From Patiria pectinifera (lineage: Eukaryota; Echinodermata; Asteroidea; Valvatida; Asterinidae): a stretch of DNA of 64,000 bases. Position numbers and translations under genes: made by a program. The notes under the pieces were generated by a model. The model ran no database searches and was not told where the DNA came from. It saw only the letters and a program-made list of their open reading frames with translations. The DNA lies in contig CM057136.1 in assembly GCA_029964075.1 (NCBI GenBank), positions 7,006,001 to 7,070,000 on the forward strand, read 5' to 3'. Below are positions 2,780 through 42,089 of the stretch, piece by piece; the first letter of the stretch is position 1; each line of letters starts with the position of its first letter.

Positions 2780-5700
2780 CATTTCTGGTAATGAAACCAA
2801 GGATTCCTCAAAAGCGCCCTAGGCACTGTAGCTCGCAAGCCTGAAGAAACCTGTGGAGAGAAGACAATGAGAAGAAATTACAGTTTTAGAGGTGGGAGGA
2901 AAAGCCCAGAAGAATATTCTGGGGAAAACCCACGGAATCAGGCAGGGACTGAAAACCCAATCCACATATTGGCCCAGGTGGGATTCGAACCCGGGTCACA
3001 GCGGTGGAAGGCGAGGAAAGTACCGCTACGCCAACCTGACTCCCTGTTGTTATCACGACAAACCGGTATCGCCCACAAACCGCCAGAAATGTCATCTTGG
3101 TAATCTTGTAGAATTTGTGTAATGCGCGTCCATTCTGTTTGGCCTATTACATGCAGTGCACATTCAAAACCTTTCATAGTCCAAACCAAATTCTTAAATT
3201 TCTTCCATGCAGTGCGCAGCATACACATGTACAAGATGCAGCAAGACTTTTGTGCAACTTCACTGGGCAGCTGTTTTGTAGTATGTAGTCATGGTAGTAC
3301 GGGTGGGAATTGCGTGCAGAAGTAGTGCATGTCCACTCGTTTCCCCTCTTTTTCGGGAGGGGGGATTTTTACAAGCTTCCCTAGATGTTGTTGCTGGTGG
3401 TAACGCCCTCTCCTGGCAGCGACTTATCATGTATCAAACCACAACAACGTCTTGCCTGTATACTTGTTCAAACCCACTCCAGTCAATTTCTTTGTTATAA
3501 AGAAAATTCAATTTAAAGAAAATTAACAAAGCTTGCTGACCTTCAGGTGGCCTCATTCGGTACCACTTTCGGCCAATCAGAAGCATGATGATCGCCACGA
3601 CGATGGAGGCTGCTGGGATGGCATATCCTACATCGAATCCGATCTCCTGCTGTACGTAGACCACGGCAGAGAAGGAGACAGCCGAACCCACATTGATGAA
3701 CCAGTAGAACCTTCACATGAAAAAGTCCAAAATTGAAGTGCTGAGCACGGTAAAATCAAATTGCAAAGTGTAATACCGTAGCAGCTGTAACACTAAAATC
3801 TCAGCAGGAACGATGGTTTTGTTCATAAATAACTACATCAAAAAAACATGTAACAACATATTTGTCTTTTGATTTACAGTTTAAATGAACTTCTATTTAA
3901 ATACAAAATTGGTGGGCAGTCTATTTATCTCTCCAAATAAAACCACCCCTTCAGGAAACATTTGAACCCAACTCTGTAGCTACTGGCTCTTGAACAGTAG
4001 CGCTATGCGCAACACGCACACCAGCATGCATTTGCTCACAAATATCGAACCATGGAACAAGAATGATCCTAACTGTTGAATAGTAAATCCCATTCACCAT
4101 GGGCGAATGCAGCCAACCATTGGACACTATTGTCGAGCGCCTTAAGACCAAGGCTAGGGTGAAGCATACAGTTAGTGGCATTGAATTAATCCATTAAAAC
4201 GGTAACCTTCCACATCACAATCTCACCAATTGAAGAAAGACTTGACCGGACCCTCTCCAAGATCATCCAACTGTTGAGCTCCGAACGGGCCCACGTTGGA
4301 TTTGATGCCGCCTGTACCGATGGCAATGACGGCTAGACTGAAGAGGAAGAAGCCTCGCTTTTGGCCCACGGTCAGCCCAAGGTGGGGGCCATACTGGGTA
4401 AAATCTATGGAGATGATGGGCAACAGAGTCGTGCCTTGATCAAAGAAATAGAGAAAAGACACCAAAATTAATTTTTCAAATTGCTGTTTTTTTAACAATA
4501 GCCTGCAATGGATAAGAACCTCATTAGTATTCGTGAGGCTTAAAAAGATTGATGATATTGCGCCCGCCAGTGTTACAATTGTCAAAATTGCACGTAGTCA
4601 GACCTATTTTTCCAATTTTAACGAAAAGTAATGAACATATCACGACGACTTTTAGCATATACGTGGATCATTATAGGGGAAACAATCCTTCTTTCTCCTT
4701 CCAAACCGGAGAAATTAATTTTCAAAGATTTCACCTGCCAACATGACCATGTCTGTGAACATGTAGTTTCATTCAAAATAGTGTAACGTATACCTTTAGA
4801 AATCGTCCTTCGCAACCATAATTATGGCCGACATGTACATGTACATTGTACATGTGTCAAATGCCACACTTTTGATGAATGCGTCTTTCACACGTTTTGA
4901 GTTACAACGTCCACAAGGAAAATTAGCTCAAATTTCTTCTTAGGCCAAAAAAAAAAAATATTCGGTCTCTGGTCAGACCAAAGTTCCGGAATTGACGCGG
5001 CCACGCGACCTTTTTTTTTTTTTTTTGCTTTTTTTTTTTTCTTCAAGCTATTGTACAGACAAGGTGGGTACTATTTTGCTTTTTTGCTGTCCTCATGTAC
5101 ATTGGTGTCCTCCATAATTTGCCTTGGTGCTTTCGATCATTTGCCTTGATGCAATTTCCCATTCCTTGGTACTCTTTGGTAAAAAAATTGAGGAGGTGCG
5201 GAAATAGAGGGCGCTGTTGGAGCTACCGCGGAACATTTTGGAAAAAAAAAAGATCGACGCGCATGATTAAAATCTATGCGCGCGCTGACCAGAGACCGAC
5301 TTATTTTTTTTTTTGGCCTCACACGTGTTCTTTATACTATTGTATGGTGAAAATATACATACTGGTGCATATGTAAATCCAGATCAGCAGCGAGTTTAGG
5401 CTCTCGCATGTTTAACTGGATCAGTTACTTCGATTTCAATTATTCAATAATATTCGAGTCCAAGTTGGAAAAATCAAATACTAAATTATTTGAAAATGCA
5501 CAGCCTCATTTGATCACTTGTAAACACAACAAACATGGGTAAAAAAAAGAAGTTAAAACTGATACCTATGCAATAAATGAGGCCTGCTCCAAAGATAGCA
5601 TTGTATTTTCCCGATACGGAGTCAGCAATCCATCCACCGATGACCGGCACAAAATAAGACGTTCCTGTGAAGATGAAGGTAACGGTGGTCGCGTCGGCAC

Positions 5701-5941
5701 TCGTGAATTTCAGCTCGTTGGTGCAATAGAGCACCAGGTTGCCAGCAATGCTGTAGTAGGTCAGCCGCTCGCACAGCTCTAAGACCAATATGCATAGCAC
5801 CACGCCCAGACGATCGCGTTGGATGCCGAACAATGTTCTAGCAGGGGCCGGGAAGTCCATCTCCACGCTTGATGTCGTCTCGCTTTCAGGCCTCACTGGA
5901 GTTTTCAATCTCTCGTCAATTTCTTGGTAAACGTTTGACAT
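407..5941 (-). CDS. SLC15A4-like: SLC15A4-like proton-coupled peptide/histidine transporter, 5' five exons
   Basis: Five minus-strand exons join in phase with GT-AG borders: 5941-5566, 4434-4227, 3710-3541, 1418-1201 and 593-407. They encode about 386 residues, roughly two thirds of the usual 570-580; the rest lies beyond the left edge after a GTAAGA donor at 406. Exon 1 gives an acidic N-tail and TM1 with the POT-family ExxER motif (E55-R59), then a GGWIAD signature. The exon 2/3 junction rebuilds the second POT signature NWFYWFINVG. Exon 4 ends in YWTVYFQ and exon 5 starts MSTTYLLQG, both matching vertebrate SLC15A4 (PHT1). The family moves di- and tripeptides and histidine with protons, mainly across endolysosomal membranes. 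I chose the ATG at 5941 because the protein then starts near the family's N-terminus; an in-frame ATG at 5974 would add 11 residues. SLC15A3 is a possible alternative name. Introns hold LINE, SINE, hAT and MITE debris. No frameshift is seen. Confidence 0.88.
905..1090. repeat. Fragment of a hAT-like element in transporter intron 4
   Basis: About 180 bases here align by eye with 36785-36965, sharing runs such as gtgacttgtcaaca, gcattcctag and gctatcaacaaatact. The second site lies inside the TAG...CTA-ended element at 35654-37062. This copy is therefore an internal or partial piece of the same family, sitting in the intron between the fourth and fifth coding exons. Confidence 0.55.
1521..1585 (+). 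repeat. tRNA-like sequence (SINE head)
   Basis: The stretch holds a perfect RNA polymerase III A box, TAGCTCAGTTGG at 1529-1540, in a D-arm context like a real tRNA. A clear B box is missing: the expected place reads aaggtcacagc. It is probably the head of a decayed tRNA-derived SINE rather than a tRNA gene. It lies directly upstream of the LINE fragment beginning near 1614. Confidence 0.5.
1614..2640 (+). pseudogene. 5'-truncated LINE reverse-transcriptase 3' end, interrupted by a SINE
   Basis: The reading around 1614-1860 shows WGAS, then YAPTDYRAPVWSRRAHT and EKLPVLAGMSLAALRGK, a conserved C-terminal segment of RT proteins from animal non-LTR elements. After the SINE at 2033-2282 the same protein resumes in two frames. 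One frame has LPRRSWVNLN and LTGVGRS (2420-2460). The other has WGFTSSPACKCGAEEQ followed by the spaced Cys residues of the terminal zinc knuckle (2477-2560). At least one frameshift plus the SINE make it inactive. The domain order supports a Jockey/CR1/RTE-like source, but I cannot assign the clade. It lies in intron 3 of the transporter, antisense to it. Confidence 0.7.
2033..2282 (+). mobile_element. tRNA-derived SINE, copy A (nested in LINE)
   Basis: The head has a polymerase III A box (TGGCCTAGCGG, 2040-2050) and B box (GGTTCGAGCCC, 2103-2113). The body then runs cttgagcgaggcactta, cttcatccttcggatggga, cgttaagccg and aaagaacca. The same body, in the same order, is found on the minus strand at 8055-8306, which defines the family from this window alone. 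The spacing of the A and B boxes suggests a tRNA with a long variable arm as ancestor. It splits the LINE remnant at 1614-2640, so it is the younger insertion. Confidence 0.7.
2745..2777. repeat. (TTA)n microsatellite
   Basis: Eleven uninterrupted TTA units follow the LINE remnant. This may be the A/T-rich tail on which a retroposon ended. Confidence 0.9.
2840..3045 (-). mobile_element. tRNA-derived SINE, second family
   Basis: Read on the minus strand, an A box-like TGGCGTAGCGGT and an exact B box GGTTCGAATCC form a tRNA-like head (about 3043-2975). A body follows with gattgggttttcagtccc and cgtgggttttcccc and ends near 2840. The body differs from the SINE at 2033-2282 and 8055-8306, so it is a separate family. 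The CCA-less, diverged anticodon arm argues against a functional tRNA gene. Confidence 0.65.
4940..5321. mobile_element. MITE with T-rich inverted ends, copy 1
   Basis: The ends are inverted: TTAGGCC, an A-run, then TCGGTCTCTGGTCAG at the left, and CTGACCAGAGACCGA, a T-run, then GGCCTCA at the right. The inside contains ccttggtg runs and no long coding frame. A second copy lies in opposite orientation at 57360-57757 with the same ends and core (gagggcgct, taccgcggaacattttgg). It is non-autonomous; the superfamily is not determined. It occupies intron 1 of the transporter. Confidence 0.75.
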
Positions 5942-8054
5942 TTTGGTGCATGTGGCTGACGTTGACACGCACACACTTCAAGACAGCGTTTATCTTATTC
6001 AGTGCAGCATAAGCTGTATAAAACTCAGGACATCTGTGAAGAACCTAACGATTAATCTGTAAAAAAATACAAACAAACAAAATGTAAATTAGTTTCAAAG
6101 TCATTCCAACATGTTTAAATTAGGGGCTAAAAATTCATTTAGTCTTCGCAGTTCACAAACAAATATCAAAGAACCAGTTTTGACTCCAACAATAATGTGA
6201 CAGCAAACTTTCACTTTTTCAAACTTTCACAGCAAATTTTCCTGGGAAAATCAAAGCAAGATACATGCTTTTATCTAGTAAAACGACGACAGAGAAAAAC
6301 ATAGGAAACAGGTTACACTGTATTAATCCTTCTTTACAAAAAGAAATAAGCATGACAAAAAGACAACAAAATTTTTGACAAAAATTAGCAGGCACATTTA
6401 CCCATACGTACATTTCAGAAGAGAAAAATACAACAAATGTTAAACTTATACAAAACGGCAGTTGCAAGATGGAGTGATTGAGGCTGTGTGAACATGATTA
6501 TGATAAACAAGATTGCATGACAAACGACTGCATCATGTGATATAAGCTGGAGTCACATGAGGATAAACCAGGAAGTAAACAATATTCAATTCCCAAAACC
6601 ACAAGCACGAGACCTTGAAACCAAATACAATTGCAGGGAATAAGTTGCAAGTTCAAAGTACATTCACCCATGCATGGTTTACTTCACTCAGAGTAAACAA
6701 CACGGGCACGGCATCAAAAGCACACAAATGGACCAGTTTAAAGTTGCATTCCGCGATTTTCTTCCTGAAAAAATAGATTTCTTTTCTAAATTGCTATTTT
6801 TTAACAATACAAATGTTATTCACTTTGGACTTGTTGGAAGGGGACGTGACATTGACCTAGCTTGAGTAACTCCAGCTTAACAAGCTCATCGGGAATTTAC
6901 ATGTGAATTCCTGATGAGCTTGTTAAGCTGGAGTTACTCAAGCTAACATTGACCCCAAAAATGGTAATCCTTAGGAAAAAATTCCATACTGGGCCACCAC
7001 TCATATTCCTTAATATGACCTGAAAAGTACCAAAAGTTGTAAATCTGATGAAGAAAAACTGTTAAAGGAGTGCAAAAATTCTTTGATACTTACAAATGTT
7101 CTGTCATGGCCCATAGACTTTGTGCAGGAGCTCAGAGTGGTGGCCCAGTATGGATTTTTTTTTCCCCGAAATGACTTTTGCAGGCTAATGCAGTCTTTTT
7201 CTTCATACAAAACTAAGGATTACCCAAAAAATAGGCCCATATTTAGTTACTGAATCTTCACTTCTTGCCTGGTGACAAACTTGGCCCGGAGATGAGGCCC
7301 GTAGCCACTGCACTTATTATACCCCAATCGGTGGCCATGATGAGTTGTTTTCTGGATAATCTAAGCATGGAGGTAGAATTAGAAATGGTCAAGATAAGAA
7401 CTAATCAACACAGACATGTTGATTAATATCGTCTAATGTCCAAAATTCGCGCTGCCCAATATTCGCGCAACCAACTTTCTCGGCTCGTATTGATATTGTT
7501 TTTCACACAACACGGACCGACGTCAAATCACCGTCGATGATCCATCGTCACATCGCCTTTATTCTCGATGCAGTTATGCGGAAATCAAAAGCTTTTCCGG
7601 GAAGCTATTTGAGAAGAAATCAAAGAGAGTGTAAATAATTACCGTACTGAGTAAATACAAAACGTAACATTATTGAATGGCCCAGAAAACTAATAAAAAC
7701 ATCGCCACGAATTTCCACTCAGTGTCACCGTCCAACCCCGAAACGTGTGAAACTAAGTTAAAGGCAATTTTGGAATTGGTCGACTTTCACTAAACGACAG
7801 AGGGCGTTATCAGAATTAAGGTGCACGAAAAACGACGTGCACCATATCGCGTTATTATTATTTTACGATCTGTTTCGCCGAGATGCATATTTCGGTACTG
7901 AGTTGTTTCTGTATCTGTATGGCTACGTTGCAGAAACCTATTCAGGCATTATCGCAACGGAGTACTGAGGTACTCAAGGCACTGGGAGTTATGTCTATAA
8001 TTAGATGAATGAAGTACATGAGAGATATGAGACCCATTATGTGGCACCAGGGTT
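5942..8054. other. Intergenic DNA upstream of the transporter
   Basis: I see no gene here. AT-rich sequence continues upstream of the transporter start with no recognisable promoter. The only clear structure is the long hairpin at 6858-6945. Confidence 0.6.
6858..6945. repeat. Near-perfect 40-bp inverted repeat
   Basis: Arms 6858-6897 and 6906-6945 are complementary at 39 of 40 positions around an 8-base loop. The arms contain GCTTAACAAG, also present in the arms of the hairpin at 32900-32968. It could be a miniature foldback element or a palindromic duplication. No flanking target duplication is evident. Confidence 0.85.
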
Positions 8055-8978: not shown

Positions 8979-9960
8979 TCAAGGTGCCGATGCCAGAACT
9001 GCTTGACCAAACTCCGTCTGAGATGATCTTCTGTTGTAGAAGTTGGCAAAAGTAGTCACGGATGACCAGTCTGCCGTTTTCAGGATGTCTTGAGTTGTTA
9101 CCCCTGCACTTGCAGCTGCTGAGGTAGATGCACCCCTGGTTGAATGGGCCTGGAAACATGAAGTATCAACGCCAGCTTCTTTGAGTACATCTTTTAACCA
9201 TCTGGAGACTGTGGATGACACTACCGGGTGGTAGGGTTTGGAGTGTGACAGCAGGAGCTGAGTCATGCTAGAGTTCCCATTTGTTCTAATATGAGAAGTC
9301 CTGTTGAGGTATTCCTGCAAAGTGCGTACTGGGCAAAGGTTTCTGTTAGCTTGAAAGCGAGCAATTTCTATATCGTGGAAGGGTTTGTTAACTGACACAC
9401 GTTTAGAAGGTTTTACCAACCAAAAATGAAAACTGCCATCTGAGGGCCTTGACATATGATTGATATCGATAGCTGTGAGTGACGTACAGCGACTAGCTGT
9501 AACTAGTGCAATTGGCATAGTTAATTTAAGAGTTAACTGTCTGATAGATAATCTACAATTGTCAGGTAAAGACTTGAAATAAGTCAACACAGTTGCCACA
9601 TTCCATGTAGCATTGTATCGTGGTTGTGGAGGACGCAAATTAAGAACACCCTTGAAGAAACGTTTAACTAAAGTGATGTTGTCCAACTGGTGCTCCGTCT
9701 ATAAAGACGTGGGCTGAGGAAATTGCCGATCTGTATACATTGTATAGCAACCCTGAATCTAACAAATCTAGAAGAAAGGATAAACATACCGCTATAGGTG
9801 CTGGAACAGGATCTGCTTGCCTCTGAAGACACCAGCTGGCCCATCGATTCCAAGCTGAATCATACTGCTTCTTGGACTTGTCCCTCCATGATGACATGAC
9901 TGTGAAGGACACTGACTGAGAAATTCCCTCTGAGCGAAGGTTTTCCCTGACAGCTTCCAC
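8979..9960 (-). pseudogene. DIRS tyrosine recombinase, one frameshift
   Basis: Two overlapping frames together make a recombinase of about 320 residues. The N-terminal part (9960-9664) has the core-binding-like segment SWRDKSKKQYDSAW. The C-terminal part (9686-8979) has the catalytic first Arg (TASRCTSL), the HxxR pair (HSTRGAS), a Trp (ADWSS) and the nucleophilic Tyr (FANFYNR). These are the RHRY residues of the phage integrase family, with the spacing seen in DIRS elements. The frame changes between 9664 and 9686, so the copy is inactive. The protein would insert the circular DNA copy of the element. Confidence 0.88.
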
Positions 9961-9973
9961 GCGGCTAACAACC

Positions 9974-10640
9974 TTAGATCTGCCAATGGATGGACAAGTG
10001 TTCGGTTGTGAGGCAATTGGAGAAGATCTCTTCCCCTAGAATGACGCGATTTTGAACGGCCATCTCCAGAAGTCTGGGGTACCAGATCTGCGTGCGCCAG
10101 ACGGGGGCGATGAGCACAATCGTGGCCTGTTCCTCGCTGATCTTGCTCAAACACCTGGGCAGAAGCGCAAAGGGAGGAAAGGCATAACCCTTTATCTCCA
10201 TCCAGTTCAGAAGTACTCTCCATGCCATGGAATCTGGTTGCCATGACACGAACATCTGGAGTTGAGTGTTGAGTCGAGTTGCAAACAGATCCACGTCTGG
10301 GGAGAAACCTAGTCTGTTCATAATCCTGCGAAATAACCGAACGTTTAGCTGCCATTCCGACCGATCGTTGAACACACGGGATAGGTTGTCCGCTGTGACA
10401 TTCATCGAGCCTGGCAGGTGTTCTGCCGTCAAGATGAGACTTCTTTGGAGACACCATAACCAAATCTTGAGTGCAAGTTGAACAAGACTTACGGAGCGTG
10501 TTCCACCCTTGTGGTTTATGTAAGAAATCGCCGTAGAGTTGTCCATCTGTAGCCGAACATGCACATTTTGACGGTCCTTTAGTAGCGTTCTGAGTGCATA
10601 AAAGGCTGCCAACAGTTCGAGATAATTGGTGCCGGTAGAA
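9974..10640 (-). pseudogene. DIRS RNase H, N-terminally deleted, plus following domain
   Basis: The frame ending at 9974 carries an RNase H with LELLAAFYAL (catalytic Glu), VRLQMDNSTA (catalytic Asp) and AEHLPGSMNVTADNLSR. DLFATRLN and YAFPP follow in the region that in DIRS elements is assigned to a Dam-like methyltransferase; I am unsure of that last assignment. The first RNase H strand, usually DASxxGWGA, is absent. The RT frame and this frame meet at about 10620-10640 in different phases. An internal deletion of roughly 100 codons is the simplest reading. Confidence 0.8.
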
Positions 10641-13073
10641 TAACGGGGCTGGGAATACTGCTTGTATGGTCGCTGACATCTTCCCGATCAAACTGGCAAG
10701 ATCGCGGACTGAAGTTGTGTGTGCTGACAAAACCTCTCTGCAGTGGCTGATGATGTTGTTTATCTTCCCCTGATTTAGGGAAAGAGTCATGTTCTTGGAA
10801 TTTATAACAAATCCCACGTACTCGACTTGCTGTGTTGGAATCAGATTGGATTTCTCCTTGTTCACGATAAATCCCAAGCCCTGGAGCAAGTTGACGGCAA
10901 GATTGGTACTGTTCAAACAATCCCGGGCTGAAGTTCCCATGATTAAGATGTCGTCCAGATAAAAGACGCAACGAATCCCTTTTTCCCGGAGTGACGATGC
11001 AACTGGTTTCAGGATTTTGGTAAATGTTCTCGGTGCACTGCACAGGCCAAAGGGCATGCATGAAAACTGGTAAATGACGTCTTTCCAACAGAAGCGGAGG
11101 AACTTTCTGTGAGACTGATGAATCGGCACTGTAAAATAGGCATCCTTGAGATCGATGGTCGTTAACCAGTCGTCCGAAATTAACAGATGTATGACTGCTG
11201 TAATGTTCTCCATTTTGAAGTGTTGGTATGGAATGAACCGATTTAACGGTCTGAGGTTGATGACGGGACGGAGATCTCCGTTTTTCTTGGGTACCATGGA
11301 AATTGAAGACAGAAACTGACCTTTAAGTGGCTGTACAACAGTTATCGCTCCTTTCTCCAGCATCTTCTGCACCTCTACATCAAAAATACTCGCGTGATGA
11401 CGAGATTGGGCTCGTGTAATGGGGACTTTACTGTGAAAGGGCTCTGACAAAAATTCCAAGCGGTAGCCTGAAATGGAATCAATGATCCATGGGTCATGTG
11501 TAACAAGTAACCAATGGTGCTGGAAGTGTTGAAGACGACCTGCGAGAAGTAGATTTGCAGAAGATGTTGGGGAACTGGCTGGGGAACTGACTGGAAAATT
11601 AAACACAGTTAGTTTTTTTTTTGAGGATGCGTTGTCTGAAGCATTAAGCTGCCTACCCGCTCTTCCTCGGTTTGAAGATGACTTGTAAGATTGTCGACCA
11701 GCAAACCCGTTGTATGTCGGCTTGTAGGGTGTCGAAAATCGGCGGTTTCCTGACGCTCTATACACAGCTTGGTAAGGCGAGAAGCGCTTCTCTTTGGAGG
11801 AATTTGTAGAATGGCTCTTACCACTGGTAACTTTCGCGGCTAGTTTATTGGCTTTCTCCGTCTCCTCGATATCTTTCATCAGCGAAGAACCGAAGAGATC
11901 CCCCATGGAAGGTTGGTTCCGCTTAAGGGCGTCGAATTTCTTATCAACGATGTCATCAAAGGCACGTTGGCGGGTTGTTGCGAGGCCTTGGTTGGCAGAA
12001 CCTAACAGAATTAGGCCTGAAGAAATTACGTCCATAACCATATCCTTGTTCATTTCACTGGGACCTTCGGGATCGGCAGCTGCCTCAAATAAGTGAAGAA
12101 GTGGCAAAGCTGCCTTCAGGGCGTAACCTTGAGCAGTTTTTAGTCTGTCATCTTGAGCAACAATGGACGGATTTACCCGTTTGAATACTTTCTTGATACC
12201 GGCAGGCAACTCCGGAGCAGAGAAATATTTATCCTGCTCTTCGGGAACCGCAAAGGATGACAACTCCTCTTTGTGCTCTTCCGGTGAAAGTTTATGAGTT
12301 TTAAGCTCTTCCCACCATTTCATCACCTCATCCGAAATGGGATTTCCTTTGTCCTTATTGTGGGGGTTACGGAGGATCCCCTTCGAAGCAGGAAGGGAAC
12401 TCGTTGAAGTTCCTGCGTTAGAAATTTCCGAGCTCTCCTCGTCGCTGATGTCACTGACGACCGTAATAACGGCGTCGGTGTGAGACGGCACGCTACCAGC
12501 AGATGATGACTGTGCTCGTGAACCAGTAGGTGCAGTTGTCGGGACAGCGCCTGACGATTGCAGATATGCCGATGGAGGCTTCTGTGGAAACCACTGGGTA
12601 GGAAAACCCCAGGAGTTGTAGTAGCATGGCGGCATAGGTGCCGAGTTTGCAGTCGTGGGAAACCGAGGATTACCCCAGGGGCCCGGGTTCCAGGCCGGCG
12701 TGGCCGGACTGAAAAATGTCTGCGGCTGCGACCAGGCTGAAACATACCCAGCCGGGTTTCCTGTAGGCCCGAACGACGGGCCATGGGCGGTGCCGGTACC
12801 GTATGGCGGTGCCGATGGAGTAGGCTCTGCTCTAGTTGGAGTAGGATCGGCAGCTCGTTGAGATGATACTGGTTGATGCATGTCGCTGGACGGAGTCGAC
12901 TTCGGAGCTGGACCGGAGCCTGCATTGGGTTTTGGGTATAATAACCCTCCACCCGAACTGCCATCAGCCCATAACGGTGCTGAGGCATGGCGGTCAGTCG
13001 TGGGTTTCGGGCATGAAGACCCTTCACCCGGACCGCTAGGTCCTTCCTCGTCTCCTATTTCTCTGGTAGCCAT
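10630..13073 (-). CDS. DIRS gag-like and reverse transcriptase reading frame
   Basis: One open frame begins at the ATG at 13073. About the first 480 residues are a Pro/Ser-rich gag-like protein with an alpha-helical middle (KWWEELKTHKLSPEEHKEEL) and a basic Ser/Arg-rich end. RT follows with VPKKNGDLRPVINLRPLN, palm A (TTIDLKDAYFTVPI), CMPFGLCSAPRTFTKIL and the active site FYLDDILI. The RT thumb begins normally (AVFPAPLFYRHQ) and then the homology stops. The frame stays open by chance to 9792, but that tail overlaps the RNase H read in another phase and should not be taken as protein. No zinc knuckle or protease is seen. Confidence 0.87.
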
Positions 13074-13249
13074 GGCTGTGTCTACAGATGCTGGAGGCTC
13101 ATCTGGGGGCCTCTAGACGGTGGCTGGAGCCGTGGAAAATCGAGGGCGACGGGTTGACATTTCCTACGAATCACGGTAAAAATCCAACGAAAAGCACTAT
13201 ACGGGCGTGTATACGTATACGATGTGATCAGATTGCGACACAAAAAACA

Positions 13250-17935: not shown

Positions 17936-19328
17936 TTTTGTCAACATTTGAACAAAAAACCCTTTTAACTTAACAGTCTTCCTTAAATAACGTCAGAGCA
18001 ACAGCGCCCTCAGAAATAGTCAGGAATAGCATTGACATATTTAAATCTTTACAGAAGTGCACCTTTCAATAAAATAAACCGAAAGGGAAGTCAAATAGTT
18101 TTCATACATTTAAGAGGAGTAAAAAGTTGCACAAAATATGTTCCCAAGTAATTTTCACCTCGTGGTCCCTGTAAGGTCAAACTTTTGATCAATTAATTTA
18201 AACTTTAACTTTTCAAATGAGTGGAGTACCGGTCATGTTCCTAATGATCAGTTAGACATTGTCTCGGGAAAACGTTTGGATTTCCCGGCACAAACATTTG
18301 CCCTTTACTTCTGGTGTTCCTGGATGTGCAATGAAAATTGAATACAACGTAAAAACGGAAGCATTTTATAACAGAAAAAATAATTGAATACGGTTGTGTT
18401 GAGTGAGGAATGCTTAACACAAAAAAATGCACGATGACGTCAGCATGCACCCAGAAGGTCGCCCTCTACCTCTAGCGGCATGCACATCAAATAAGTTGAA
18501 CTTGCTTGAATAAAAAAATAACTTGCCAATTTATTTCAAATTGCTGTTAGATATTCTTATGACAACGGCAAGTGACTTTGCAGGGTTTCAGATTCCTGAC
18601 GTAATCAGACCGGAAGTTATTGTAGGGAGAATTTTAAAATGATGAGTTTTCGTTTTTTCAGTTTGCACCAATTTATTTGCTGACGTCATCAATCCGGAAA
18701 ATAACGTGTTCTGTACATAAAATGTGCTAAAATTTATCATACCCTAAAAGATGCGTTTTTGTTCTCAATTAAAACGAATGGTTTTACTGGAACGGCTGAA
18801 TTTCATGATTATTTTTCGTTTTAATATAAAATTATATGTAGTTTTCGGCCCAATCACTCAGCGTTTGTAACTCAACAAATTAACGCGAATTTCTTTTTTT
18901 CCTTCGCTGTAAGTTCTAGGACTATGTATTATTTAAAAGATGGCCACAAAAAATTCTTTACTGCACAATAGCCGTGACTTGATGCTGGGGGGGGGGGGTG
19001 AATAGTCAATCATGGTCGTTTTTATAAGGCAAGCATAAACATGTCGTTCGTAGGGACAAGATGGCGATGGTGTACTGTAGTGGTCACGTTTTGAATAACG
19101 GCATGTGCACCACGATCGAAGATTCCACACGAGTACATCTCATGGGTTTTCCTCAAGTACTTTCAAATTCCTATTTCTTCGTTTGGGTCATCGCCCTTAA
19201 GGGAAAACATGAAAATAAAAAGTAAATAAATCATTAACTTCAAAGATCGCCTTCAACTTAAATCCATAGTGTTAAAAACATTAATGATAAGTTGCTTTGT
19301 TCCCTCTCCCCGCCTTTGAAGGAACAAG

Positions 19329-22300
19329 ATGTCGTTCGATGAGCTGAAGGAGTTGGGGAACAAGCTCATGAGAGCGAACCCACCTGACTACGAGGGCGCC
19401 CTGGCTGCCTACAGTCGCGCAATAACACTAAGCCAAGACAAAGTAGCTGCTTGCATCCTGACAAACCGCAGCCTGGCATACCTGAAACTGAATCGTAGCG
19501 AGCAGGCCATTGAAGATGCTGACCTTGCCATTGCGATTGACCCACAGTGGGCTAAGGGCTACTGGAGGAAGTGCTGCGCCCTCAAGGCTCTGGGAAGGTA
19601 CCATGAGGTCCTTCCGGTTGCACAGGACGGATTCAAACTTCTTAAGAGCAACGCGACCTGTCGAGAGTTCGTGGCCGCCTGGCTGAGGGCCTGCCACTCG
19701 ATTTTCAGCGCGTTCGAAAATATGGTGGCTCTACCAACCGGCACGGCTGTAATCTCGAAGAGCTACGGGGACATTCTGATGTTGTCGCTTTTCTCTAGGA
19801 CATCCACGGCCGTGGGAATGACGGAGGATCAGATGGCTTTGTATCTGAAGTGCACGGCGGAGGAGTTCCAGCGAATCATGACAGCATTCGGACAGCCAGA
19901 GTGCCGTTCGTTGATGGATTGGGTAGAGGCTGTCACGGCAAATCTGGACCCCACAGCACCGGGCATCCCAGTTAAGCTGCTGGACACTTCGCTGAAGAAG
20001 ACCAATCAGTTCTGCTCTGAGCTGTCCTCACTGCATGTGGCTCTCGCGGACATAGCCCGGCCCCTTGTCGCCTTGGCTATGATAGTCATCCTGTCCCGGA
20101 CCTATGTTCTGAACTGTGCAAACATCTGCCATCAAATCATACAGTACAAGCTGCACTTGTGCTTGCCAATCTTTGAGACGTCCATAATGAACGCTCCGGA
20201 ATACATCGGCCTTCACCTGGGAACAGCAGGTGGCTTTCTCGACTCCTTCGTTGGGCGAGAAAAGCTTACAGCAGACGACACCTCACTGATGGAAGAGCAC
20301 TGTGACAAGATAGACAGGCTTCTCATTGCCTACCCCAGGACGGACAGGGAATACACGGATGTGGTCGACATCAGCACTCGCATCGTTGCAAACGTCAGGA
20401 ATTTTGTAAAAGCGAGAAGGACTGGGGAGTTTGTCACCTCCCAGGGGCTCCCCACAGAACCAGTGAAGATGAACGCGGAGTTTGCGAGGAGAGATGCGGA
20501 CAAGTGTCCAGACAAGGTCAGGAGTTACATCAAGGAGCGACTAGAGGAAGTGAATGAGAAGCACGGAGAACAGCTATTCATACGAGATGGGGAAGACCTG
20601 CTGACGTTGACAGTTATCAATCCCTTGAATATTGAACTGAACATTTATTTCAACGTTGCTGCTTACATGTTCAGTTACTATATATGTAAGTGACAATACT
20701 TATGAGTACATATATGCTTGCTTGCTGAACATTTATTTCAACGTTGTTATGTCACCAGAAATATTAAATCGTTATGTTAACATTTAAGCATACAAAATAT
20801 AATTCGAAGTAATTTTACACAACACCGTTATTAACATAATGAAAATATGTACATAATCCACATAACAACACGGGGATATGTACATGAATAACAAAGTAAT
20901 CAAACAACATAATGTAGACCAGTAGAATGAATTATAAAATTGGACCAACGTTAGATATAGGATAAAGCAAATTGCTTTTGAGCCCTAACCTTAAAGGTAT
21001 CTTGCCTGTTGTGTCTGTTTTTTCAAAGGCAAAGTTATCTCATTTTATACGATATTCATGTGATTGGAATCAGAGTGCTCTGCAAAAGGAAGTTTTAACA
21101 ATCTCACTACAAGTGGTACATGTATTCTCTTGGCTGTATAATTTTATATTTTCTAGTTGTCAACGTTAATTATCTTTTAATAGATGTCTGCCTGCGAATC
21201 AACGAGAATGATCTGGCGAAGGAGGTTTTCCAGTTGGGGGAAAAGGTCATGTTTACCGTGTTTGGTCTACAGATGGCTTGTGGCGTGATGAGTCTCGATG
21301 ATGCATCGGCACAACTCTCCACATTCAGACAGGACGTCATGATGAACGCTCTTTTACTCAAAGAAGCTGAACCGGGACTTGTCGTCGACGTGGCCGTTCG
21401 CTGGAGGTCACTGCTATCTGAATTCCGTGCCACCCTCATCCGGCACGGTCTCGGACGGAACTACCTTGACACATACTCCAACATCCTCAACCTGCAAGCT
21501 ACTGGCAATCTCCAACAGCCTTACCACCCCGATGTTATCCAAGACCTGAGGAAAGCCCACGAGGACAAAGAGATGAGGTTCCTCCGGCAGCATGCGTACC
21601 AGTGCTTCAATGCTGTCGTTCGGACCCCAACAGCTGCCCGCATCCGTGCGGTATTAGAGCCAGATCAAATAGTTCTGGATTACATCTTGCTTGGAGAGAA
21701 TGAATCGTTTGAGGTGGATTCTCGGGCAGTTCTGAGAAAGTATCTGCTCGTGGTAGGATATGCGCAGGAGCCAAATTGGTTTTCTCTCGATAGCAGCAAG
21801 TGCGCAGCTGCCGTTTTAAAGTGGCGTGAAGCGCTCAACAAATCGGTTGCTCAGATGAATGATCCTGATTCTGATAATGTATCAGAGTTGACAGCTGCAA
21901 GTATAAGCTTGACGGAGGCAGTCTTACCCGACACTGTGTTACAGCAGCTGAAAGGTGGGCACGTGAGGCATGCTTACATCGCGCCAGATTTGATGCTGAC
22001 AGCTCTTCCACTCAAGCTACTGCAAGACGCAAGCGGTGGCTATGTCTTTGATAGTTGTTCAGTCTGCTACATCAGCGCGGGGAGGGAACTTTTGCGAGAA
22101 GTAGTCCTCCGTAAGGTAGTTCAAAGCACGAGGAATCAAACTCGAAATCAAGATGCTGAAAGTCAGACAAAGGATACGGGCAAATCCGCTGAAGGTAGCA
22201 GAATAGATGAAAATGCAGGAGGGGTATCTACGGGTGGGATCGGTGATAACAGCAGTGAACAGGTCAAGACGGACCACGATCAATCTGCTGAGAAGAAGCA

Positions 22301-23168
22301 ACCTTCGGGTACCTCTGGTGGTGAGAAGAATCGGCAAGGTGTGCAGACATCACAGAGAAAATGCCTGTCTACTTCATCAGATAATATAGATTGCTTCATC
22401 ATCGGTGATCCAAACTTTGACCTAAAAGATTCATCGGGTGATAATAACAAAGACCTCGTCCAGATGCTGAAGGACCTTTGGAAACCTTCAAGCACCGGGT
22501 GCACCGTTAACCGGTTACTGCACAGTAAAGAGGAGATCGACAACGTGGAAGGAATACTGACAATGTTGCGGCCAGAGCTGAAAGTCCATCTAATTTCTGA
22601 CGATGATGCCACCGTCTCAGCCGTCCTGAGGTTGAAGTCTCCCTTTATTGTCCATATTAGCAGCCACGGCTTCAGTCAGGCCAACTTCAGTTTCTACCGC
22701 GGAAATTTTTGGGATGACACCAAATCGGCAGTGGTTCTGGCGGGGTACAACACGTACGCCTGCAGGCGCTACGAGGAAATTGATCCGCGCACCGGGTCGG
22801 GTATGCTGTCCTCCTTGGCCATGTCCGGGCTGGATCTTCGGGGGACGCGACTGGTCGTGCTGTCCACGTGCCTGTCCGGAGTAGGTGCGGCAACGTTCCA
22901 GGAGTCCGTGAGCAGCCTAGCTGATGCCGCCAGGGCAGCGGGAGCTGAGACCGTGGTGGCCACCTTCTGGAAGGTTCTGGACTTGGACGCGGCCGAATTT
23001 GTCAAGCACTTCTACAACCTTCTGTGTCAAACCGACGTGCGTCCGTCACAAGCGATCAAAGAAGCTAGGGAGGAGATGAGACAAGATCCGAGGTATGCCC
23101 ACTGGTATCACTGTTCAGCATTCGCTTGCTTCGGCTACGATCTGCCGCTCTTTCCAAAGCACAGTTAA
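19329..23168 (+). CDS. TPR-CHAT protein (caspase-like protease with TPR repeats)
   Basis: Two exons, 19329-20685 and 21184-23168, join in phase (1357 + 1985 bases) with donor GTAAGTGA and acceptor TTTTAATAG. They encode 1113 residues. Residues 1-105 form three TPRs of the co-chaperone type (ALAAYSRAI, ACILTNRSLAYLKL, AIEDADLAIAIDP, GYWRKCCALKALG). A long helical region follows to about residue 680. The C-terminus is a CHAT domain with ALPLKLLQD, HISSHGF (His947), LSTCLSG (Cys1015) and ATFWKVLD. His and Cys are the catalytic dyad of this clan CD family, related to caspases and separase. A 90-residue polar linker (about 762-855) interrupts the domain. Bacterial TPR-CHAT proteases act in anti-phage defence. 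Animal members exist but I know of no defined substrate, so the function here is inferred. Residues 429-452 look like read-through of a former intron. No signal peptide is seen. Confidence 0.87.
20638..20746. repeat. 20-bp direct repeat across exon 1 end and intron
   Basis: The sequence gaacatttatttcaacgttg occurs at 20638-20657, inside the last part of exon 1, and again at 20727-20746 in the intron, 89 bases apart. The strong donor GTAAGTGA lies between them. A local duplication here probably reshaped the exon border. Confidence 0.8.
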
Positions 23169-23248: not shown

Positions 23249-23254
23249 AATAAA
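23249..23254 (+). promoter_or_regulatory. Polyadenylation signal of TPR-CHAT gene
   Basis: A canonical AATAAA lies 81 bases after the stop codon, a normal distance for a short 3' UTR. No competing signal lies nearer. Confidence 0.6.
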
Positions 23255-41027: not shown

Positions 41028-41170
41028 GCAAGAATATCATCTGGCACGTGATGGTGAATTGACCAGTGAGAGTTCGGCTCTCAATCATGAATATGCATGA
41101 GGTATAGTAATAATCTAATAGAATATTGAGTTTACTCCCAAACTCTCAAGTCCGTTGTAAAGTAATAATG
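41028..41170. repeat. Receptor-cluster 3'-flank repeat, copy 2
   Basis: Close copy of 39055-39200. Here it abuts the broken receptor at 41171 directly, so the lost TM6-TM7 portion was removed at this junction. Confidence 0.75.
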
Positions 41171-42089
41171 GTTGCGAGCTATCAGGGCGATGCGTGCATA
41201 CAGGACGAATATTGATAGAATTATGACAACAGCTACCGTAAGAGTTAGATAATTCCTCCAGTCATAATGTCCTAGGCAAAGGTAATAACGGGTATCCAGT
41301 GGGACAACACGATTCCCATCAATCCCAAATATTAAAATGCAGAGAATGCTCACTGTAGCCCATGTGCTAAACACAATTATCTTTGATCTGAACATTGCCT
41401 GCTTGGTTTTCAGCAGCAATAAGTCGGGCTTGGTTGCGAGCTATCAGGGCGATGCGTGTATACAGGACGAATATTGATAGAATTATGACAACAGCTACCG
41501 TAAGAGTTAGATAATTCCTCCAGTCATAATGTTCTAGGCAAAGGTAATAACGGGTATCCAGTGGGACAACACGATTCCCATCAATCCCAAATATTAAAAT
41601 GCAGAGAATGCTCACTGTAGCCCATGTGCTAAACACAATTATCTTTGATCTGAACACAGTCATGATTGAAGGGTATTGCAGAGGCTGGGAAATTGCGATA
41701 TAACGATCCACAGCCAGAATAAAAAATTAAAAAAAACTCAAACTGACAAAAAGGTAACTAGTCACACTGTTTACCACACAGAGAAAATCTCCCAGCAACC
41801 AAGATCCAGCAAACAGTTCGGTTAATGCAAGGATCCAGTATAAGCTGTTGCACAGATCAGACAGGGTGAGAGAAGCCATGAATATTTTGGTTGTTGGCTG
41901 GATGCTGGTGACACGACGTAAGGTGAAAAGCATCAGTGGATTCAGTAAGACGCACAGAAAGATTGCAAGTACTGCCAAAACCTTGACCAAAATCAACAAT
42001 GCTGTTGATGTGAGTTCATTCTCAATATTGTCTTCTGTTGAGTTTGAAGTGACAATTATTCCTTCATCCGGTGACCATGTAGTTTCCAT
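41171..42089 (-). pseudogene. GPCR pseudogene with internal duplication
   Basis: From the ATG at 42089 the sequence follows the family through TM3 (VNSVTSYLFVSL). A run of A breaks the frame near 41730. It resumes at AVDRYIAISQPLQ and passes TM4-TM5 to ICL3 (AAENQAGN, about 41400). There it jumps back and repeats TM4-TM5 a second time (FRSKIIVFSTWATV to IALIARN, 41395-41171). TM6, TM7 and the tail are absent. The two repeats are almost identical, differing at few bases (for example CLEHYD against CLGHYD). The duplication is therefore recent. Confidence 0.88.

Follow-up and report, generated by a model that had tools for sequence, protein, structure and literature searches.

Previous studies, cited here by PMC number, suggested that most metazoans carry one or two TPR-CHAT genes while two Acropora genomes carry 276 and 304, the human member being TTC28 (PMC12314368); animal TPR-CHAT genes are further treated in PMC6208414 and PMC9145168. 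Outside animals, a fungal CHAT protease with TPRs activates a gasdermin (PMC12881547), and the TPR-CHAT protein of Craspase (Csx29), whose partner is the CRISPR protein gRAMP/Cas7-11, has a catalytic dyad of H585 and C627 that lie about 3-7 angstrom apart (PMC9729208). Here we describe a TPR-CHAT gene of Patiria pectinifera at positions 19329 to 23168 on the plus strand of a 64,000-nucleotide stretch (GCA_029964075.1, contig CM057136.1, 7,006,001 to 7,070,000; the window, which means this whole stretch). Like TTC28/TPRBK and the coral proteins, the encoded protein has N-terminal TPRs and one C-terminal CHAT domain (PMC12314368); however, those proteins are described with a long TPR stretch, whereas the window protein has one three-repeat domain of the HOP type. 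Judging from the sequence, we lean towards the reading that this animal gene, present in one copy, encodes a CHAT cysteine protease which is probably active and which uses Hsp70 and/or Hsp90 as its docking site. The pairing of a clamp TPR with CHAT is most likely a new domain combination inside a known family, in which a co-chaperone docking domain replaces the usual TPR array. A first-pass annotation of the same DNA had called the animal members little studied, which is not supported, animal TPR-CHAT genes being already in print (PMC12314368).

The N-terminal clamp TPR domain

Residues 4-111 (19338..19661, plus strand, as are all features of the gene) form a three-TPR domain of the HOP TPR1 type according to the PDB sequence search, Pfam TPR_2 and NCBIfam. 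Human HOP TPR1 (1elw) matched these residues with an E-value of 1.5e-13, and whole STIP1 (7kw7) reached 8.6e-24, a value summed across its several TPR domains. Among the best 60 of 77 matches of this search, ranks 1-23 were all STIP1/HOP, SPAG1, RPAP3, PP5, CHIP or SGT chains (these represent six kinds of protein, the same one often recurring), and a designed TPR appeared only at rank 24. Pfam TPR_2 matched in one stretch (28.7 bits, cut-off 27), and the NCBIfam TOM70 model gave a weak match to the N-terminus (E 1.4e-9, far under its cut-off). The three N-terminal TPRs of the first-pass annotation were thus confirmed, with TPR_2 over its cut-off and an alignment running along the three-TPR HOP TPR1.

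All five positions of the dicarboxylate clamp were retained (K7, N11, N46, K76, R80): Lys7 (19347..19349) aligned to HOP K8, Asn11 (19359..19361) to N12, Asn46 (19464..19466) to N43, Lys76 (19554..19556) to K73 and Arg80 (19566..19568) to R77. The HOP numbers are those that we take to be the clamp residues, and the positions in the window protein come from the printed alignment. Elsewhere, the clamp consists of Lys8, Asn12, Asn43, Lys79 and Arg83 in Tah1, where it is termed equivalent to those of CHIP and HOP (PMC13153604), and of Lys5, Asn9, Asn40 and Lys70 in Toc64 (PMC3877065), and such a clamp reportedly mediates Hsp70/Hsp90 binding in about 25 of the 736 human TPR proteins (PMC6212638).

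The window domain matches the clamp TPR co-chaperones (HOP, CHIP, PP5, SGT, RPAP3, SPAG1, TOM70) lengthwise and at the five clamp positions. Enzymes known on clamp TPRs include the ubiquitin ligase CHIP and the phosphatase PP5, and their chains are also so named among the matches listed (best 60 of 77), none of which was named a CHAT protein. In contrast, the best matches to the repeats of bacterial TPR-CHATs are designed consensus TPRs and kinesin light chain, not HOP; a PDB search with profile A2 was dominated by bacterial TPR rows.

The CHAT domain and its catalytic dyad

The CHAT domain (PF12770, 21909..23135) scored 129.6 bits in Pfam against a cut-off of 24 and spans residues 271-679 in the frame of exon 2. 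Its predicted catalytic residues, His947 of the HG motif in HISSHGF (22665..22667) and Cys1015 in LSTCLSG (22869..22871), were invariant in 13 of 13 sequences, the alignment comprising the window protein and 12 bacterial homologues (all 12 loci from the second genome scan, in which 145 stretches matched its patterns). A hydrophilic low-complexity insert of 83 residues (22101..22349) splits the domain and falls in a gap in all 12 aligned bacterial CHATs, which lack it. A profile of the CHAT parts matched the Craspase TPR-CHAT in PDB (E 3e-4) with Cys1015 on C627, and H585 of Craspase, counted on the CHAT-profile alignment, lies within the HG motif that it shares with His947 (a motif-level comparison).

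An AlphaFold model of exon 2 was built on the alignment of the same 13 sequences. Its predicted local distance difference test score (pLDDT) exceeded 85 in blocks 451-490 and was about 66 in the block with the His (494 of exon 2). When Foldseek was run with this model, Craspase came top (E 1.3e-8), followed by separase and SAVED-CHAT, and all 33 matches at E <=0.001 were Craspase, separase, SAVED-CHAT or 8rot (a CHAT protein), with gingipain and caspases weaker. As modelled, the CHAT domain has a caspase/separase fold, and the encoded protein is probably a CHAT cysteine protease, predicted to be active. The annotated C-terminal CHAT domain with His947 in HISSHGF and Cys1015 in LSTCLSG was therefore borne out by profile, alignment and fold, and the alignment with characterised CHAT and separase structures that had been proposed as a check placed Cys1015 on Craspase C627, with Craspase, separase and SAVED-CHAT as the nearest folds.

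The window protein shares with the Craspase TPR-CHAT (Csx29) the CHAT fold and the dyad of an HG histidine and a cysteine. However, the Craspase protein differs in sequence (10-13% identity in structural alignments), in its TPRs and in its CRISPR partner; no CRISPR protein was present in the nine window frames scanned with Pfam, and no genome-wide search was made. Separase has the same protease-domain fold but is encoded by a different gene, whose exons lie on contig C15 in this genome, and the window protein had no Peptidase_C50 match at E 0.5. The separase exon matches (G000:C15, 17.84-18.02 Mb) form two nearly equal sets separated by about 145 kb, which may be a duplication or an unmerged haplotype.

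The closest CHAT sequences in the collections searched were cyanobacterial, Bacteroidota and other bacterial TPR-CHATs, with 24-38% identity over the matched stretches. Scans with the window CHAT found two Tolypothrix records among plasmids and no relative in the first genome-contig scan, the one viral-contig scan or the phages. PADLOC gave a weak match alone (BovA, E 0.027), and NCBIfam gave no match for the CHAT part.

Proposed chaperone docking and its alternatives

Candidate partners for the clamp are encoded in the same genome: the Hsp90 on C14 ends in DDDASRMEEVD and two Hsp70s end in GPTVEEVD. The Hsp90 copies on C21 end in KDEL, and one further Hsp70 locus ends in RDEL. The two KDEL-ended Hsp90 copies (G000:C21, 26.36 and 27.19 Mb) have the same tail and lie about 0.8 Mb from each other, oriented oppositely.

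Because the HOP-type TPR keeps all five clamp positions and the genome has EEVD-ended Hsp70 and Hsp90, the CHAT protease is most likely docked on chaperones. We infer TPR binding of EEVD tails, protease activity, gating by chaperone state and a role in stress or immunity. The N-terminal TPR would hold the chaperone by its C-terminal EEVD tail, using the five-residue dicarboxylate clamp, and the helical middle region would connect it to the caspase/separase-fold CHAT domain with the dyad His947 and Cys1015. Chaperone occupancy, or a chaperone client, would keep the protease inactive or deliver it to its substrate, and limited proteolysis would thereby be turned on by proteotoxic stress or infection. 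The gating is modelled on Craspase, whose active site is gated by RNA binding of the partner complex. In its full form, this would be a protease switch in which the clamp TPR senses Hsp70/Hsp90 occupancy and limited proteolysis follows in stress, infection or cell death once chaperones are titrated away; we offer it by analogy and tentatively, as a conjecture more doubtful than likely. If true, a chaperone-sensing CHAT switch would be the animal counterpart to the RNA reading of Craspase. The clamp TPR predicts binding of EEVD peptides that depends on K76/R80, and such binding would couple the state of the chaperones to a caspase-like protease. A CHAT protease on a clamp TPR was not found in the literature searched, which misses most subscription journals and is no proof of absence, and the portions of the literature searched named neither an activator nor a substrate for any animal CHAT protein.

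Several results weigh against chaperone docking of an active protease. The bare clamp spacing was present in 3 of 13 bacterial TPR-CHATs, in one of two TPR frames preceding other CHATs of the same genome (L015, L017) and in 59 sequences when the first 110 residues were shuffled 20000 times; since bare spacing is not unique, the clamp argument draws its weight from the aligned positions inside a domain resembling HOP. P0001 by itself had no meaningful PDB sequence match (one row, E 0.023). The exon-2 AlphaFold model was modest (predicted TM-score 0.62, mean pLDDT 57), its pLDDT was about 45 in block 561-570, which contains the Cys (562 of exon 2), and its Foldseek TM-scores were about 0.2-0.37 for the query, with a large root-mean-square deviation in most rows. 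The structure prediction for exon 1 was unusable (pLDDT 39.5, TPR helices broken). Finally, the exon join is uncertain, positions 20613-20684 being intron-like in composition.

Of the competing explanations, the one that survives best, though we regard it as unlikely, is a protease of immunity or cell death comparable to those of Craspase, SAVED-CHAT or fungi, in which the TPR and middle regions would sense a ligand, the CHAT domain would cut an executioner such as gasdermin, and chaperone docking would be secondary or a folding aid. The CHAT fold and dyad fit such a protease, and the TPR-CHAT families of corals are expanded and discussed as immune or apoptotic (PMC12314368, PMC6208414). However, the window gene is single-copy, unlike an expanded recognition family, its TPR is of the co-chaperone type, and no effector was recognised among seven neighbouring frames scanned with Pfam (G protein-coupled receptors (GPCRs), an MFS transporter and a retroelement), most short frames lying outside that scan. 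A gasdermin search of the same genome (PF04598) gave no match, but its controls were silent too and it is hence uninformative. An immune or cell-death role is possible by analogy. The first-pass annotation had itself drawn the analogy with Craspase and the gasdermin-activating proteases, which ignores the TPR type: a co-chaperone dicarboxylate-clamp TPR points first to docking on Hsp70/Hsp90.

Gene structure

The gene model consists of coding exon 1 (19329..20685, 452 codons plus 1 base, donor TAT^GTAAGT), a GT-AG intron (20686..21183) and coding exon 2 including the stop (21184..23168, acceptor CTTTTAATAG^ATG), which holds the entire CHAT domain within a single open frame. A polyadenylation signal AATAAA (23249..23254) lies about 80 bases past the stop. 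Once spliced, the two exons encode 1113 residues, and we presume from the sequence that both would be joined in one mRNA. The remainder of exon 1 (19662..20612), between the TPR domain and the exon end, is mainly helical in a low-confidence prediction and has no recognised family. The stop-to-stop frames of the exon 1 and exon 2 regions are 457 and 689 codons long; the longest frames in 300 mononucleotide-shuffled versions of the region had a mean length of 126 codons and did not exceed 229, and the observed frames, which are well above every shuffle maximum, are therefore not due to chance. The earlier two-exon model of 1113 residues agrees with these frames, splice sites and translation, and its full-length frame and normal polyA signal are likewise sustained by the frames beyond the shuffle range and by the AATAAA at 23249. 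As far as the genome search reaches, the gene is single-copy.

The exon join is the weakest element of this model. The GC content is 0.54 at 19329-20612, 0.31 at 20613-20684, 0.52 in exon 2 and 0.30 in the intron; because 20613-20684 is at intron level, exon 1 may really end earlier, with its last 24 residues perhaps noncoding. An exact 22-base repeat (20637-20658 = 20725-20746) spans the same place as this low-GC end of exon 1. A donor at 20517 has a consensus score equal to that of the chosen donor, but in a different phase, and an alternative acceptor at 21156 is phase-compatible and would give 1122 residues instead of 1113. Upstream, an acceptor-like site (a pyrimidine tract, then AG, 19300..19321, read by eye) ends 7 bases before the ATG, and an upstream, probably non-coding exon is therefore likely; by eye, this points to an exon that the first-pass model misses. 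These doubts about the end of exon 1, the acceptor choice and the upstream exon leave the TPR and CHAT domains untouched.

A wrong or decayed gene model, in which two adjacent genes or a pseudogene had been joined by eye, would account for the intron-like last 24 codons of exon 1, the uncertain junction and the 22-base repeat at 20637 and 20725. Nevertheless, the region contains two long, intact, co-oriented frames, the GT-AG sites between them are compatible in phase, the composition on either side is that of coding sequence, a stop and a polyA signal are present, and TPRs recurrently occur together with CHAT (PMC12314368). We consider such a misjoined model improbable.

CHAT relatives in the same genome

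Besides the window gene, this genome has at least three further CHAT loci, on C19, C17 and C10. Their CHAT domains are divided over several open frames, whereas the window CHAT lies in one. TPR frames of 949 and 839 codons lie upstream of the CHATs on C19 and C10, respectively, and C17 has weak TPR matches only. The TTC28-type gene on C19 (L015, G000:C19, 4883-6288) has HFATS and LSCYAS at the dyad sites, and its protein is therefore suggested to be a pseudoprotease, from the loss of both catalytic residues. The multi-exon gene on C17 (L016, G000:C17, 2697-9998, minus strand) keeps both dyad residues (HFATH and LSCCQTG), and the CHAT on C10 keeps a Cys while its His position falls at an exon end. 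The window CHAT was 23-30% identical to these three relatives and 26-33% identical to 13 bacterial CHATs. In the best tree (181 columns, 17 sequences, L033 and L035 left out), the C19, C17 and C10 CHATs clustered with an ultrafast bootstrap (UFBoot) value of 83 and the window CHAT lay outside; when all four were forced together, the approximately unbiased (AU) test gave p = 0.21.

These comparisons bear on whether the window gene might encode a TTC28-like housekeeping scaffold for mitosis, microtubules or polarity, in which proteolysis would be irrelevant. The human TPR-CHAT protein TTC28 functions in cytokinesis (PMC12314368), its zebrafish orthologue limits the dynamics of microtubules and is itself held in check by Dachsous (PMC12132318), and the TTC28-type gene of the same genome has neither dyad residue. 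However, the window gene has both dyad residues and no long TPR array, and its CHAT lies outside the cluster of the three relatives in the best tree, although the grouping with them is not rejected. A scaffold role of this kind seems very unlikely to us.

Two other origins found no support: whole-gene horizontal transfer from bacteria, because the TPR is of the eukaryotic co-chaperone type and the bacterial CHAT matches are just 24-38% identical, and a recent retrocopy of a CHAT relative in the same genome, given the low identity of the window CHAT to those three.

Other features of the window

The Rfam and tRNA scans of the window gave no matches. At least seven rhodopsin-family GPCR frames lie at 33535-63016 on both strands and have the common motif RRVTSIQPTTK; all four that were tested matched 7tm_1 at E 6e-28 or better, and the cluster looks like a lineage-specific receptor expansion. 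Within one GPCR frame, a 262-base tandem duplication with 99% matching (41169-41656) may be recent or an assembly effect. On the minus strand, a retroelement at 8982-13112 has a reverse transcriptase and a tyrosine-recombinase frame, and we presume it to be similar to DIRS-like elements. Also on the minus strand, an exon at 5489-5977 has a weak MFS_1 match and is part of a group of exons at 4226-5977, which we take to resemble a POT/SLC15 peptide transporter.

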